From contig NZ_BJVA01000011.1 of NCBI RefSeq assembly GCF_007988905.1, positions 1 through 64,000 on the forward strand: DNA of 64,000 bases, written 5' to 3'. The notes under the pieces were generated by a model. That model ran no database searches, was not told the origin of the DNA, and saw nothing but the letters and a program-made list of their open reading frames with translations. The position numbers and the translations under genes are program-made. The DNA is from Gluconobacter kanchanaburiensis NBRC 103587 (GTDB lineage: Bacteria; Pseudomonadota; Alphaproteobacteria; Acetobacterales; Acetobacteraceae). The stretch's first letter is position 1; every line of letters starts with the position of its first letter. Of this stretch, positions 15,205 through 23,883 are shown in pieces.

Positions 15205-17960
15205 GCCGGGATCACTTCCATTTCGTAGCACTCGACCATGTCACCTTCGCGCAGGTCATTGTAACCCGCAAAGGACAGACCGCACTCGTAACCACGTGCC
15301 ACTTCCTTGACGTCATCCTTGAAGCGCTTGAGCTGGCTCAGCTCGCCTTCATGGATGACCACATTGTCACGCAGCAGACGCACGCCACAGCCGCGCTTGA
15401 CGAGGCCTTCGGTGACATAGCAGCCCGCGACCTTGCCGGTCTTGGTGATGTTGAAGACTTGACGGATCTCGGCATAGCCCAGGAACTTCTCGCGATGCTT
15501 CGGCGCGACCTTGCCCTTGACCAGCTGCTCCACATCATCCGCCACCTGATAGATGATCGAGTAGTAGCGGATATCCACACCATCACGCTGGGCCAGTTCA
15601 CGGGCCTGCGTAGTTGCACGGACGTTGAAGGCCACGATGATCGCATCGGATGCTTTGGCAAGCTGGATGTCGCTTTCCGTGATCTGACCGACACTGGCGT
15701 TCAGAACACGAACCGCAACTTCCTCATGGGCCAGCTTTTGCACAGTCGTGGAGATCGCCTCAGCCGAACCCTGCACGTCAGCCTTGATGAGAAGAGCGAC
15801 TTCCTTCTGCACGCCAGCCTGAATCCGGGCCAGCATCTGATCAAGGGTTCCGCGGGCCGCAACCTGCGATGCGGCGTCCTTCTCCTTGATCTTCCGCTGG
15901 CGGAATTCGCTGATTTCACGAGCCCGTGCATCGTTTTCAACGACCACGAAAGGCTCGCCCGCACCCGGAACACCTGTGAGACCCAGAATCTCGACGGGCA
16001 GCGACGGACCGGCATCCTTGACCTGACGACCGCGATCATCAAGCAGTGCACGCACACGCCCCCATTCAGAACCTGCCACCACGATATCGCCGCGATGCAG
16101 GGTTCCCTTCTGAACGAGGACCGCAGCGACCGGACCACGCCCGCGATCCAGACGACTCTCGATCACGACACCCTCGGCCACGCGCTCCGGGTTTGCCTTC
16201 AGATCCAGCAGTTCCGCCTGGAGCAGAATGCATTCCTCAAGCTTGTCCAGCCCGGTCCGCTTGAGAGCCGAAACCTCGACGTCCTGCGTGTCGCCACCCA
16301 TTTCCTCGACCACGATCTCGTGGCTCAGCAGCTCCTGACGAACCCGGTTCGGATTGGCACCCGGCTTGTCGATCTTGTTGATCGCCACGATGATTGGAGC
16401 GTTGGCCGCCTTGGCGTGCTTGATGGCTTCAATCGTCTGCGGCATCACGCCGTCATCGGCAGCCACCACCAGCACCACGATATCGGTGACAGAGGCACCA
16501 CGAGCCCGCATGGAGGTGAAGGCCTCATGACCCGGCGTATCGATGAAAGTGATCTTCTTTCCCGACGGCGCCGTGATCTGGTACGCGCCGATATGCTGCG
16601 TGATGCCACCAGCTTCAGTCGCCGCCACATCGGTGGTGCGCAGGGCATCGAGCAGGGAGGTCTTGCCGTGATCGACATGACCCATGACGGTCACGACCGG
16701 AGCACGCGGCTTCAGATCGGCTTCAACGTCTTCAACGCCTTCAATTCCGATTTCGACATCGCTTTCGGACACGCGCTTGATGCGATGACCGAATTCCTCA
16801 ACCACGAGCTCGGCAGTATCGCCATCAATGCTCTGGGCCGCAGTCGCCATAACGCCCATCTTCATGAGCGCCTTGATGACTTCACCCTGACGGGAGGCCA
16901 TACGGTTGGCCAGTTCGGCCACTGTGATGGTTTCCGGCACAATGACGTCACGGACAACGCGAACCTGGTCGGAACGCAGACGCTCCAGTTCGGCCTGGCG
17001 ACGCTCACGGTCGCGCTGACGACGGACCGACGCCAGCGAACGCGTCTTGTCATCATCACCTTCGATCGCCGCACGGACGTCGATGCGCCCGGAACGACGG
17101 TCACTACCACTCCCCTTGCGGGAAGGTGCAGAAGGGCGACGCTGCGGTACGGCAGCAGGACCGGGACCACTGCGACGGGGCGCCGGACGACGCTCATCTT
17201 CTCCCGCAGCGGGTCCACCGGTACGGAGATGAAGCGTTTCGTTGTTGCGGACCGAAGAGGATGCGGCGGGAGCAGGACGTGCGGGCTGAACCGGGCGCGG
17301 CGGCATGATCGCACGCTCGGCCAGCGGACGCAGGCGCTGCACGGGCGCTGCAAGCTGCACGCCACCTGTAGGCTGACTGCGGGGATCCAGAGGGGCCGTA
17401 CGTTCGGCTTCCTCGGCAGCCCGGGCAGCAGCCTCGGCGGCAGCCTGCTCGGCGGCACGTGCCGCAGCTTCAGCAGCGGCCTGTTCGCGGGCAGCCTGCT
17501 GCTCGCTTTCCTTCAGAGCAGCTATCTCAGCCGCTTTCTGTTCAGCGATCAGACGCTCTTCCTCGGCGGCGCGACGCGCAGCCTCGGCGGCGGACATGAT
17601 CTGGATCTTCTCTTCCTCACGCCGCGCAGCTTCTTCGGCCGCAGCCTGACGCTGCCCTTCGAGCGCGCGCTGACGGGCTGCGAGTTCCGCTGCCGTCAGA
17701 GCACGTCCACCTGCACGGCCGCCTCGAGCCGCCGCACCGGCACCCGGGCCAGCGGCATTGCGCTTGGGTTTACGCACCTCAACCTGCACGACCTTGGAGC
17801 GGCCATGGCTGAAGCTCTGACGCACGGAGCCGGCATCCACGGTACGCCCAACCTCCTGACGTCCAGCAGGGCGAAGCGACAGGCGGCTGCTTCTGGTCTG
17901 TTCGCCGCCCTGTGATGGGGTGTTGTTTCCGTCCTGGTTGCGCTCGTTGCCGTCGCTCAT
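15201..17960 (-). CDS. infB: Translation initiation factor IF-2
   Basis: A 919-residue full-length IF-2. The first 300 or so residues are basic, Ala/Glu/Arg-rich and partly coiled ([17 protein letters not shown] type), as in alphaproteobacterial IF-2. The IF2_N domain ([22 protein letters not shown]) follows. The G domain has [13 protein letters not shown] (G1), [10 protein letters not shown] (G2), DTPGHEAF (G3) and INKIDKP (G4). Domains II-IV end the protein with the fMet-tRNA-binding region ([12 protein letters not shown]). It overlaps ylxR by ATGA at its start and rbfA by TTGA at its end. Confidence 0.98.
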
Positions 17961-18646
17961 AGTTCCGCCTGTTCCTTACTGACCCCTGCGGGGTCTGGGA
18001 GCGGACGTCCTGCCACTCCCGAAAATCTCTCATGTTCGGCGATCAGGCGCTGTGCCAGCGCACCGGGCGCCATCACCGCATAGACCGCCCGGTCCCGGCT
18101 GAACGCCGATTCCAGGACCCGATCGGGAACTGTCACCACCGGCAGAAAACGCCGGCCCGACACCAGTCTGGAGAATTCGTCCGGACTTGCACTTTCCGAA
18201 CGGATCACCACCCCTACCCTGCCTGAAGTGAGCCACTCCCGGCATTTCTGAAATCCGCAGACCGTCTGTCCCGCACGTCGGGCCAGACTGACTGCATCCA
18301 GCATACGCTGCACCAGCGCGGTCGCGACCAGATCGGCCAGACCCTCCGGCACAGTCACCTGGGCTTTCGTTGCTCTGGCGAAAGCCTGTCGTGTGCGGGC
18401 GCTATCTAACACATCCCGGCTGGCACTCAACCACATTCCCCGTCCCGGAAGTTTTCCTGCGAGGTCGGGGACAACCCGGTTATCCGGACTGACCACGAAA
18501 CGGATCATGCCTTCAGGCGGCTTCTGCTCTCGCGTTACGATGCATCGCCGCTCCGAGCCGCGACGCCCCAGAGCACCCCCTGAAGCACCACGAACGGGAC
18601 CATTATCAGTATCAGAAATTTCAGACGTCGGTCGACTCCCCGTCAC
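17957..18646 (-). CDS. ylxR: YlxR-family RNA-binding protein (DUF448) fused to an L7Ae-like domain
   Basis: About 229 residues. The N-terminal DUF448 domain shows [19 protein letters not shown] and the [14 protein letters not shown] motif. The C-terminal half (residues about 115-200: [21 protein letters not shown], then [11 protein letters not shown]) looks like the L7Ae/L30e RNA-binding fold seen in alphaproteobacterial YlxR proteins. It lies between nusA and infB, the standard site. The start is GTG 18646, inside the nusA 3' end (26-nt overlap). ATG 18682 is possible. YlxR in Firmicutes modulates RNase P; its role here is not known. Confidence 0.88.
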
Positions 18647-21036: not shown

Positions 21037-21648
21037 ATGAATTCTCAGTACGAGCCCCGTCCAGAGCCGCGCGCCCAGCCACTGCCCTCCGAACCAGCAC
21101 CCCGCAGCCGAGCGCTGTGGGGCGGAGGCGGGCTGATCGCCGCTCTGACGGTCGGGGCCGGAGCCTTTTTCTACACGCACAATACATCGGCGCCACCCGT
21201 CTCTGCGGCCTCACCGCCGTCCCAAAGCACGCCAGCCGTACCGGCCGCCCAAACCGCCGCGGTCCAGCTTTCGATGCTTCCCCCCGCAAGGGCCCCGGCC
21301 GCTCTCGCAAAAAGCGGCTTCAGCCCTGCCGACCGCGCTCGCATTCTCGCAGCAGTGAAGGACGGCAAGATGCGGCTCGTGGAAATGCCGGTACTGGATG
21401 CGTCAGGAGCAGTAGGCCAGACCATTGACGTCACGGTCTCGGGCCTGACACAGCGCGTCGTCCTGACGGGCAAGTTCCAGCATCTGGTCATTCCCATCGT
21501 CGAAGCCGGTCAGATCCTCATCACACCTGTCAGCATGCCACATGCTCCCGCCCTGATTATCGGAGCACTGACAGCCCTCGGCCCAGAAGCCCTGCCCGCC
21601 CTGATGACGCTCGACCAGCGCGTCCTGCTCAACGTGATCGTCCAGTAA
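21037..21648 (+). CDS. Bitopic membrane protein of unknown family (cassette gene A)
   Basis: 203 residues. A proline-rich cytoplasmic start of about 27 residues is followed by one transmembrane helix (about 28-46, GGGGLIAALTVGAGAFFY). A Pro/Ala/Ser-rich linker (about 50-80) leads to a C-terminal domain of about 120 residues expected in the periplasm. That domain has SGFSPADRARILAAVKDGK, a beta-rich core (IDVTVSGLTQRVVLTGKF, then HLVIPIVEAGQILITPV) and a helical end. I recognise no family. The gene is 12 bp before the AAA+ gene and shares its strand and likely transcript. It diverges from rimP over a 216-bp gap. Confidence 0.72.
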   Translation: MNSQYEPRPEPRAQPLPSEPAPRSRALWGGGGLIAALTVGAGAFFYTHNTSAPPVSAASPPSQSTPAVPAAQTAAVQLSMLPPARAPAALAKSGFSPADRARILAAVKDGKMRLVEMPVLDASGAVGQTIDVTVSGLTQRVVLTGKFQHLVIPIVEAGQILITPVSMPHAPALIIGALTALGPEALPALMTLDQRVLLNVIVQ

Positions 21649-21660
21649 GGAACCGCCCCG

Positions 21661-22935
21661 GTGTTCAAGTCTCTCGTTCCCATGCTCAACCGGGCCATGC
21701 CGCTAATGATGGCGGCCTTCCTCATTCTGGCAGTGATTCAGGTAGCGGTCATGCTACACTTGTCGCTGAACGGGCTGTGGGCCGCCATCGAGTGGGGACG
21801 GCGTTTCTATCTTCCGCTGGCAGGCATCGGTGCCCTTCTGACTGTCACGGGACTGGCGTATGAAACGTCAGCCGAAAAACTGGCGCGGCGCGGACTGCGC
21901 CGCAGGAAAGGTCTCATCATGGATGTTCTCAGCCGTCTGACAAACCGCGGAGCCCTTGAAGAGCTCATGGCCCGCGAACAGCGCGAAACCGTCATCGACG
22001 CCGACGAACTGGCCGCCTCGCTGCGTGCCCGCGTCATCGGACAGGATCAGGTCTGCGAAGACATCGCCCAGCAGATGCGCCGCCGCCTGGCCCTTCAGGT
22101 CCGCGGCAAACCCGTCGGCATCTTCCTGCTCGCTGGCCCTCCAGGCACCGGAAAAACATATCTGGCCAAGCAGATGGCCAAGCAGATGGAACGCCCCCTG
22201 CTGCATTTCGACATGACGCAGATGTCGAGCGCCCATGCCGCAACCCAGCTTTTCGGCTCACCCAAGGGCTATGTGGGTTCAGACACCTTCGGCAAGCTGA
22301 CAGGCGGCCTCAAGGATCATCCGGATGCCGTGGTGCTGCTCGACGAGATCGAAAAAGCCCATCCGGACGTCTTCAAGAAGTTCCTCACAGCCTGGAACGA
22401 CGGCCATGTTACGGAAGCCTCCACGGGTGAACAGGTTTCGACCACCCGCGCAATCTTCATGCTGACATCCAACGTCGCAACCGAGGCTCTCACCGAAATC
22501 GCCGATCGCCTCGTCAACGAACCTGAGAAGATGCGTGCCGAATCGGTGGAGGCTCTACGCAAGTCCGGCTTCGCCCCCGAGGTGCTGAACCGTCTGGACC
22601 GTATTTTCATTTTCCGTGCACTGCGCGGATTGGATCTGGCCCGCGTCGCTGCACTCGAAATCGAAGCCATGATCGAAGGCTATGGCCTGCATGTGGAAAC
22701 CGGCGGCATCGATGCCGGAGTACTGTTCCAGGTCATGGTCAAGCAGAAGAATCTCGGTACCGGCGCGAGCGCACGCGATCTTGTCCGCTCCATCGAGGAT
22801 ATGGTCAGCGAAAGCCTTATCGTCGCCCGTCAGCAGGGCGCCAAGCGCGTCCGTCTCGTCACACAGGAGGACGGCACGGTCGTCACCGAGATTGCCAGCG
22901 ACACAGAAACCCAGCTTGGCCGGGTGAGCCACTGA
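21661..22935 (+). CDS. Membrane-anchored Clp/Hsp100 D2-type AAA+ ATPase (cassette gene B)
   Basis: 424 residues from GTG 21661, with AAGGA 9 nt upstream. Two transmembrane helices (about 13-36 and 49-70) anchor it. A single AAA+ module of the ClpA/ClpB second-domain type follows: RVIGQDQVCEDIAQQMRRRL, Walker A GPPGTGKT, pore-loop GYVGSD, Walker B VVLLDEIEKAHPDVF, sensor-1 FMLTSN, Arg-finger region EVLNRLDRIF and sensor-2 GASARDLVRSI. It lacks the Clp N-domain, D1, the M-domain and any clear ClpP-docking IGF loop. The intact pore Tyr suggests polypeptide threading. FtsH is excluded, as there is no M41 protease domain. Confidence 0.85.
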   Translation: MFKSLVPMLNRAMPLMMAAFLILAVIQVAVMLHLSLNGLWAAIEWGRRFYLPLAGIGALLTVTGLAYETSAEKLARRGLRRRKGLIMDVLSRLTNRGALEELMAREQRETVIDADELAASLRARVIGQDQVCEDIAQQMRRRLALQVRGKPVGIFLLAGPPGTGKTYLAKQMAKQMERPLLHFDMTQMSSAHAATQLFGSPKGYVGSDTFGKLTGGLKDHPDAVVLLDEIEKAHPDVFKKFLTAWNDGHVTEASTGEQVSTTRAIFMLTSNVATEALTEIADRLVNEPEKMRAESVEALRKSGFAPEVLNRLDRIFIFRALRGLDLARVAALEIEAMIEGYGLHVETGGIDAGVLFQVMVKQKNLGTGASARDLVRSIEDMVSESLIVARQQGAKRVRLVTQEDGTVVTEIASDTETQLGRVSH

Positions 22936-22938
22936 TCC

Positions 22939-23883
22939 ATGACGGCATTCGGACGGCTCTGGCGACGCGCGCCGCTCTGGCGCACAAGCGTAATCATAAC
23001 GGTAGGCGCGCTCGGCATGGCCGCCTTCTATCCCACGCCGGCGCTCAAAAAGGCCATGCCGTGGCTTCCAGGCCACCTGCCCGGGACGACACCATATAAT
23101 GCGGCGGGCGGCGCACCACAGCCGAGTGAACAACAAGGCGGCCAGCCCGGCGGCGCTCCGGGTCTGGGAGATCAGATCGGCGTGCCCGATCCCGGCATTG
23201 CCCAGCATGGCAGCATCACCATCGCCGGGCGCACCCTACCGCTTCCCGCCGGTGACTGGCATCCGATCCTGACAGCCCGGAGCGGAGCGCATGGTGAACT
23301 GTCCCAACAGGTTCTGGCCCGCACTGATCGCGGTGTCGTCTCCGGCGTCATCGTGGTCCGTGCCACGCAGCAGCCCGTCCCGGCCGATCTGGCAGAGCAG
23401 CTTGAAACGCCATGTCATGATGACCGGGACTATGCGTCCCATATTTCCGACAGGGCCGGCGTATCGCAGGAATGCAGCTACACCAGCAATGCCGTGCTCG
23501 AAAACCAGAGTGTGAGCACAGATCCGTTCATAACGGCGGCGTTTTCGCGGATGCGCACCCTGGGGTTCCCGATCCCGAGCCTGATGATCAATGTCGGCTG
23601 GTATTATGCGGCGGCGGCAGGCAAGGGCACCGCTCATATCGAAACGGTGGAAACGCTCGTCGCCCCGATCGAGCATGGATCACGCCAGCTTCTGGCGCCA
23701 CCGCAGTACTGGAACAAGGCTTCGGTTCACAAGAATCCTGATGCAGCTCAGTTCATCGATGCACTGGATCGATGGATGATTGGCTGGTCCCGGGTTCTGC
23801 GGCAGGGCTTCGATGGTACTTTGAATCCGGCCACACTGGTGCCGCCCCTCATCAACGACCCGTCCGCCCCCCGGCCGGCCTGA
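22939..23883 (+). CDS. Bitopic membrane protein of unknown family (cassette gene C)
   Basis: 314 residues starting 3 nt after the AAA+ stop. One N-terminal helix (about 15-32, TSVIITVGALGMAAFYP) is followed by a Pro/Gly/Gln-rich linker (about 50-80). A large presumed periplasmic domain follows, with GSITIAGRTLPLPAGDWHPI, VVSGVIVVRATQQPV and two Cys (CHDD and CSYTSN, about 29 apart) that could form a disulfide. The C-terminal half is aromatic-rich (LMINVGWYYAAAAGKG; WMIGWSRVLRQGF). No family is recognised. The tight spacing argues for one complex with the two preceding proteins. Confidence 0.72.
   Translation: MTAFGRLWRRAPLWRTSVIITVGALGMAAFYPTPALKKAMPWLPGHLPGTTPYNAAGGAPQPSEQQGGQPGGAPGLGDQIGVPDPGIAQHGSITIAGRTLPLPAGDWHPILTARSGAHGELSQQVLARTDRGVVSGVIVVRATQQPVPADLAEQLETPCHDDRDYASHISDRAGVSQECSYTSNAVLENQSVSTDPFITAAFSRMRTLGFPIPSLMINVGWYYAAAAGKGTAHIETVETLVAPIEHGSRQLLAPPQYWNKASVHKNPDAAQFIDALDRWMIGWSRVLRQGFDGTLNPATLVPPLINDPSAPRPA

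Follow-up and report, generated by a model that had tools for sequence, protein, structure and literature searches.

The 64,000-nt stretch of Gluconobacter kanchanaburiensis NBRC 103587 that we analysed (contig NZ_BJVA01000011.1, positions 1 to 64,000; hereafter the window) carries on its plus strand a tandem trio of genes, which we call A, B and C. B encodes an ATPase of the Hsp100 second-ring (D2) type behind a predicted membrane hairpin, and the genes on either side encode proteins of no known family, each with one predicted membrane helix. All three are real open reading frames (ORFs), with 12 bases between A and B and 3 bases between B and C, and purifying selection acts on all of them: against nine relatives, the ratio of nonsynonymous to synonymous divergence (dN/dS) is 0.02–0.06 for B, 0.05–0.32 for A and, over the eight computable comparisons, 0.06–0.26 for C. 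Together they form a genuine, cohesive and lineage-restricted unit, the layout of which is apparently undescribed. Its features are as follows.

21037..21648, plus strand: gene A, 203 aa; predicted short cytosolic tail, one predicted membrane helix, Pro/Ala-rich linker, predicted periplasmic domain
21247..21645, plus strand: predicted periplasmic domain of A, residues ~71–203 (AlphaFold model, alignments)
21661..22935, plus strand: gene B, 424 aa, GTG start; predicted membrane hairpin and single ClpA/ClpB D2-type AAA+ module
21700..21861, plus strand: two predicted membrane helices of B, residues 14–32 and 49–67 (hydropathy)
22135..22158, plus strand: Walker A of B, GPPGTGKT, residues 159–166 (sequence, alignment)
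22267..22278, plus strand: pore loop of B, GYVG, residues 203–206 (sequence, alignment)
22336..22347, plus strand: Walker B of B, LLDE, residues 226–229 (sequence, alignment)
22591..22593, plus strand: presumed Arg finger of B, R311 (alignment)
22774..22776, plus strand: presumed sensor-2 Arg of B, R372 (alignment)
22939..23883, plus strand: gene C, 314 aa; conserved, predicted cytosolic tail, one predicted membrane helix, Pro/Gly-rich linker, predicted periplasmic domain
22954..22983, plus strand: cytosolic tail motif of C, RLWRRAPLWR, residues 6–15 (alignments, relatives)
23209..23817, plus strand: predicted periplasmic domain of C, residues ~91–293, with a PLPAGxW motif, C159 and C179 (alignments, AlphaFold model)

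A single Hsp100-type module and two partners of no known family

Judged by its sequence, B is an Hsp100 D2-type ATPase as a module and, as a whole protein, fails the tested features of ClpA, ClpB, ClpC, ClpV and FtsH. It matches AAA_2 in Pfam above the cut-off (E 3.9e-37), and among PDB sequences its best match is ClpE (E 5.6e-43), with ClpC and ClpB at about 1e-39 and the second ring of ClpA also matched; the best matches are Clp and Hsp100 proteins, not MoxR. The features of a Clp/Hsp100 D2-type module (Walker A and B, sensor 1, Arg finger, sensor 2 and pore aromatic) are all found in B, and the core residues, namely Walker A K165/T166, pore Y204, Walker B D228/E229, sensor-1 N271, Arg finger R311 and sensor-2 R372, are kept in 24/24 intact rows of a 27-row alignment, with one row having Phe for the pore Tyr204. 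We take R311 and R372 to be the Arg finger and sensor 2 by analogy with the D2 ring of ClpB. Hydropathy places two helices at the N-terminus, followed by a charged linker and then a single AAA+ module that starts near residue 117; the net charge is +2 ahead of helix 1, +1 in the short loop and +4 past helix 2, a pattern that weakly fits a cytosolic AAA+ module.

The two-ring Clp/Hsp100 layout with an N-domain (and an M-domain in ClpB) is not found in B, which has a single module and leaves no room for an N-domain, D1 or M-domain, because it measures only 422–428 aa across 80 loci (the best 80 of 126 stretches encoding a relative in the genome collection, all from named acetic-acid-bacterium genera; hereafter the named loci). 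Equivalog models of NCBIfam for ClpA, ClpB and ClpV score far under their cut-offs for B (ClpB, 169.8 vs 1232 bits), and neither the HExxH motif of M41 metalloproteases nor an IG[FL]-like ClpP-docking loop between sensor 1 and the Arg finger occurs in any of the 80 B proteins. A tree of 44 D2-type modules places B together with its degenerate copies (see below) and a Microvirga relative apart from 23 ClpA/ClpB-type rows (100/100 support), although the program warns that the Microvirga and degenerate rows sit on long branches. The original prediction, made from the letters of the window, had described a three-gene unit around a membrane-anchored D2-type AAA+ protein without Clp N-domain, D1, M-domain, ClpP loop or protease; the ORFs, the two-helix hairpin, the core motifs and the length and motif counts of B bear it out.

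Hydropathy gives A one helix at residues 27–45 (weak peak, 1.52), with further hydrophobic windows within the C-terminal domain, and C one helix at residues 18–36 (weak peak, 1.59); at a hydropathy cut-off of 1.4, the helix goes undetected in 7/79 A and 2/80 C relatives. The AlphaFold model of A combines helices and a beta-sheet over residues 71–203 at a predicted local distance difference test score (pLDDT) of ~72–90, with a whole-protein mean of 69.1 and a predicted template modelling score (pTM) of 0.55, and the C-terminal end of the protein reads V-x-x-Q in 77/79 relatives. The model of C (mean pLDDT 82.3, pTM 0.71) has a helix at residues 12–30, a disordered linker at residues 46–76 and a confident periplasmic domain. 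The tail motif at the N-terminus of C, RLWxRAPxWR, is present in 80/80 named relatives, with L7, A11, W14 and R15 invariant in 25/25 aligned rows, genomes with degenerate B included; C159 and C179, which probably form a disulfide, are invariant in 25/25 and 46/46 rows of two alignments.

Profile searches of the window proteins against Pfam, NCBIfam and PHROGs, of 25 C and 23 A relatives against Pfam and of the 25 C relatives against NCBIfam returned no significant match for A or C, and among the relatives only isolated sub-threshold matches, each in a single member. Neither model matched a PDB fold at E <= 0.001: the best value was 0.0093 for A, for which MmpS5 (E 0.013), SpyCatcher and SoxYZ 2oxg (E 0.099) are weak leads only, and 0.012 for C, for which the weak leads are UTRA or START-like folds. 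A SoxY-like identity of A was considered and rejected, as TIGR04487 gave an E of 0.079 and 12.8 bits against a cut-off of 172. The two partners had been described as of no known family, and the profile and fold searches leave that view standing; no match of either to a secretion or pilus family came out of them.

The periplasmic domain of C, with its PLPxGxW motif, is an unnamed domain family. It recurs in exported proteins elsewhere in Acetobacteraceae, with several copies per region in one genus (L195:8631-9686, L196:9125-10069, L197:8776-9768, L198:3578-4741 and 16428-18419); when five of these exported proteins were compared with Pfam, one had DUF2061 above the cut-off and another DUF2061 and SHOCT below it. 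Separately, C is in pieces in three genomes (G504, G539 and G579; L237, L238 and L239), possibly through small-genome decay or sequencing errors.

Cohesion of the unit and copies without a pore loop

The order A-B-C on one strand is recovered by tblastn in 79/80 named loci, and in the remaining one (L133) reading the frame showed A where it was expected. A 4-base overlap joins A and B in 53/79 of these loci, and a divergent rimP stands beside the trio in 79/79 loci where the contig reaches it. Taken alone, this synteny is weak evidence, because rimP-nusA-infB likewise stay put. Five other Acetobacteraceae genomes (G056, G071, G086, G092 and G554) carry A-B-C in five unrelated places, with the 4-base overlap of A and B in 5/5, and in the ~10–11 kb stretches around these alternative loci A, B and C are the only genes with blastp matches between loci. 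Because cohesion persists in five unrelated contexts, the three genes appear to be held together for their own sake, and over the 80 named loci and the five unlinked contexts their cohesion is well beyond chance.

Among 120 Acetobacteraceae genomes, a B orthologue is found in 27 (E <= 3.9e-53), the next match (1.5e-44) lying in a 985-aa frame. C adjoins B in 27/27 of these, and is also matched in G049, where it is cut by the contig start and no B was seen, and weakly in G011, where the match is a different exported protein. A is matched in 24/27; five genomes that have no B also give matches to it, all of them weak (1e-5 or worse). An alignment scan for C alone matched 123/250 genomes of the order, 116 of them at E <= 1.8e-27. 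Within 385 alphaproteobacterial genomes B is found at E <= 1e-50 in two, both Acetobacteraceae, and the same two were the only matches when the Microvirga protein was used as query on 386 genomes. All other B matches in 398 genomes of the phylum cover the model only from position 81 or beyond and lie in frames at least 776 aa long; they are two-ring Clp proteins.

Outside the family, plasmid pMVF16-3 of Microvirga sp. VF16 (L176:14971-16209) carries a gene for a 412-aa protein that aligns with B over 92% at 43% identity; like B it starts with two helices, and it has Walker motifs together with the pore loop GYSG. Its gene is surrounded by many small genes of unknown function; judged by eye, the proteins encoded next to it show no resemblance to A or C, and C has no tblastn match in any plasmid record. 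In phage records, B is matched at E <= 1e-20 in 132, none of them covering 80% of B. One AAA+ gene, on a 101.8-kb viral contig (L247), shares 36% identity with a part of the Microvirga protein.

Three genomes of 1.9–2.2 Mb (G116, G061 and G070) have a degenerate B that adjoins rimP with only ~200–260 bases between them; C is present, and A has no match genome-wide at E <= 0.001. A is absent wherever the pore loop of B is absent, a state with two or three origins: among the 120 family genomes, A is matched in 24/24 with intact B (one of them with its frame broken) vs 0/3 with degenerate B. The degenerate copies share the two-helix hydropathy pattern of B and keep K165 (3/3); the pore Tyr is lost in 3/3, T166 is lost, and one or both Walker B acidics are changed (N/E, Q/N, D/G). 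The G116 copy keeps K165, E229, N271, R311 and R372 and is without the pore loop, T166 and D228 only. C and its RLWxRAPxWR tail persist in all three genomes. A fourth genome with degenerate B, G1041 (a congener of G061), likewise leaves too little space between B and rimP to hold A; over their full length its B and that of G061 share 50% identity, with synonymous sites saturated (proportion of synonymous differences, pS, 0.78; of nonsynonymous differences, pN, 0.32), which argues that the degenerate frame is kept, and B and C seem to be maintained as a remnant lacking A. In G029, from the same genus as G116, A is present and B intact. Pore-loop-less B in small genomes (L088-L090, L232-L234, L243) may represent a turn from ATPase to scaffold or slow decay.

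Our searches of open-licence PMC papers brought up no description of the A-B-C unit. The main texts of two papers on Gluconobacter knockout collections (PMC8602642, PMC12041372) and of an acidity transcriptome (PMC9557201) do not mention it under the terms searched, their supplements not having been searched; PMC3989265 deals with HslVU instead in the portion available.

A candidate membrane-fixed puller and its alternatives

We give an even chance to the reading that A-B-C is an inner-membrane, ATP-driven pulling complex built on a membrane-anchored single-ring Hsp100, with A tied to the work of the ATPase and C structural. In the mechanism that we infer, B would form hexamers on the cytosolic face, anchored by their two-helix hairpins, and the GYVG pore loop would grip a polypeptide and pull it through the ring in the cytosol, as the intact Hsp100 core and pore loop suggest. 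C would dock to the membrane part of B via its RLWxRAPxWR tail and membrane helix, as a structural partner whose cysteine-containing domain stands in the periplasm; docking, rather than being threaded, is suggested because the tail is kept where the pore loop of B is gone. A is presumably tied to ATPase work, because it is absent where the pore loop is absent, and would be needed only in a working ring, where it could act as adaptor for membrane or periplasmic clients, present them to the ring, or be the very protein that is pulled. Overall, the complex would use ATP to pull on membrane or envelope proteins and so extract, remodel or assemble them, with no protease involved; membrane-protein extraction or envelope assembly would be the likeliest roles. 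The layout of the unit looks new, the kind of motor (Hsp100 D2) is known, and the mechanism is plausible. In a bolder form of the idea, which we consider doubtful, A-B-C would be an inner-membrane Hsp100-powered translocon or force-transmitting machine, the first with its ring built into the membrane and coupled mechanically to periplasmic domains, and its small-genome relatives would have become a pore-loop-less B-C scaffold after the loss of A.

The oxidations for which acetic acid bacteria are known take place in the periplasm and inner membrane of cells stressed by acid and alcohol, and little is known of how the envelope proteins of these bacteria are kept up. If the pulling complex is real, an Hsp100 fixed to the membrane and dedicated to work beside two orphan envelope proteins would give bacteria a new means of pulling proteins within or through a membrane, one that needs neither SecA nor FtsH. 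Copies that have naturally lost the pore loop along with A offer a ready-made test of what the parts do, and both Gluconobacter and Komagataeibacter are tractable, in the laboratory as well as in industry.

Through their D2 ring, ClpB, ClpA and ClpC share with B the AAA_2 module, Walker A and B, the GYVG pore loop, the Arg finger and sensor 2; B differs in being without N-domain, D1, M-domain and ClpP loop, in having a membrane hairpin and in forming a separate clade. Features of the type VI ClpV are also missing, as B is a single ring and no tss genes showed up next to it when the examined loci were inspected in translation by eye and compared with one another by blastp. FtsH is an inner-membrane AAA protein with two N-terminal helices, like B, but carries the M41 protease whose motif B lacks. 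Msp1/ATAD1 belongs to the classical AAA family, not to Hsp100 D2; it also differs from B in being eukaryotic and in having no A- or C-type partners. The available part of PMC7018516 describes it as a membrane-anchored AAA that extracts proteins from the membrane without a protease. Skd3 (human CLPB; for its function, see the accessible portions of PMC7343390 and PMC9934407) shares with B a single D2-like Hsp100 AAA+ module (B matches PDB chains 8zrs, 7ttr and 7xbk), and differs in having ankyrin repeats in place of the hairpin, in residing in the mitochondrial intermembrane space and in having no A or C partners. By analogy with these partly available accounts, B would work most like Msp1/ATAD1, as a membrane-fixed puller, with a Skd3-like Hsp100 D2 engine. 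For an Hsp100 with orphan membrane partners, the nearest precedent would be PTEX (HSP101-PTEX150-EXP2), compared here by description: the portion of PMC7355975 available presents it as an Hsp100 that works at a membrane with two partners, neither from any other known family. HSP101 has two rings, is soluble and is tethered by its partners, and EXP2 forms a pore, whereas B is a single ring with its own predicted membrane hairpin. When considered as translocon channel subunits, A and C offer about one membrane helix each and no fold match.

There are three other explanations. B alone might be a quality-control unfoldase for membrane proteins in the manner of Msp1/ATAD1, passing its clients to cytosolic proteases, with A and C as regulators or operon companions. 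This would fit the far better conservation of B (66–80% identity vs 25–50% for A and C in the intact set) and the two-helix AAA+ protein encoded on the Microvirga plasmid without A or C beside it; we nevertheless think it rather unlikely, as the three genes remain neighbours in six genomic contexts or more and C is retained where B degenerates. It is unlikely that A-B-C serves to assemble the envelope or to secrete, with B energising the assembly or export of a periplasmic or surface structure, as with ClpV in the type VI secretion system (T6SS) or HSP101 in PTEX. The two partners are predicted to extend into the periplasm, the A domain is weakly like beta-sandwich accessory domains (the MmpS5 lead above), and PTEX pairs its Hsp100 with two orphan partners, one of which has a single membrane helix and a conserved disulfide (available portion of PMC7355975); yet in the loci examined A-B-C has no recurrent neighbour from a secretion system, pilus or T6SS, the profile searches matched A and C to no family of this kind, and there is no evident pore or channel candidate. 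That a pore-loop-less, degenerate B is kept together with C could point instead to a MoxR-like or switch-type AAA+ protein that acts on A and C by altering their conformation or assembly, with no threading of polypeptide. This is very unlikely in view of the pore aromatic and whole D2 core kept in every intact row and of best matches to Clp and Hsp100 rather than MoxR.

Several observations also weigh against the preferred reading, that of a pulling complex with A tied to the ATPase. Residues 11–68 of the A model have pLDDT <50, so its predicted membrane helix is unconfirmed by the model and weakly supported; of the earlier claim that A and C have one membrane helix each, what stands is the hydropathy of both and the helix in the C model, and what falls short is the height of the peaks and the model of A. 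In a mirror-tree analysis of 78 loci, the partial correlation was 0.71 for A-C vs 0.67 for C-ylxR and 0.65 for C-rimP, and neither A-C nor B-C was singled out above neighbouring genes. The Microvirga plasmid demonstrates that the ATPase can exist without A and C beside it, which makes a B-like ATPase separable from them; an ATPase on its own had been named at the outset as a finding that would speak against the unit, and it occurs in part, the Microvirga copy lacking both partners and degenerate B lacking A and keeping C. The cases of degenerate B are few, perhaps two or three events only, with long-branched tree positions, and the G116 copy, given the residues that it keeps, may not be catalytically dead. 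In Saccharibacter (G101/L118), an intact B lies beside an A with its frame broken near the C-terminal part (L118:5149-5613), which counts against a strict tie between A and the ATPase unless the break is recent or a sequencing error.

Genes flanking the unit

Named relatives place the window in or next to Gluconobacter, at ~90–100% protein identity. In the window, A-B-C is flanked by a divergent rimP-nusA-infB and a convergent amino-acid ABC transporter pair (names read from the translations). A promoter and terminator scan returned one promoter-like site, on the minus strand, vs 0.9 expected, and no terminator-like site on the plus strand. A fourth member gene, suspected as many relatives have >1 kb between C and artM, was rejected because this interval mostly holds a convergent LysR-type gene, found on the opposite strand in most of the 11 loci read.

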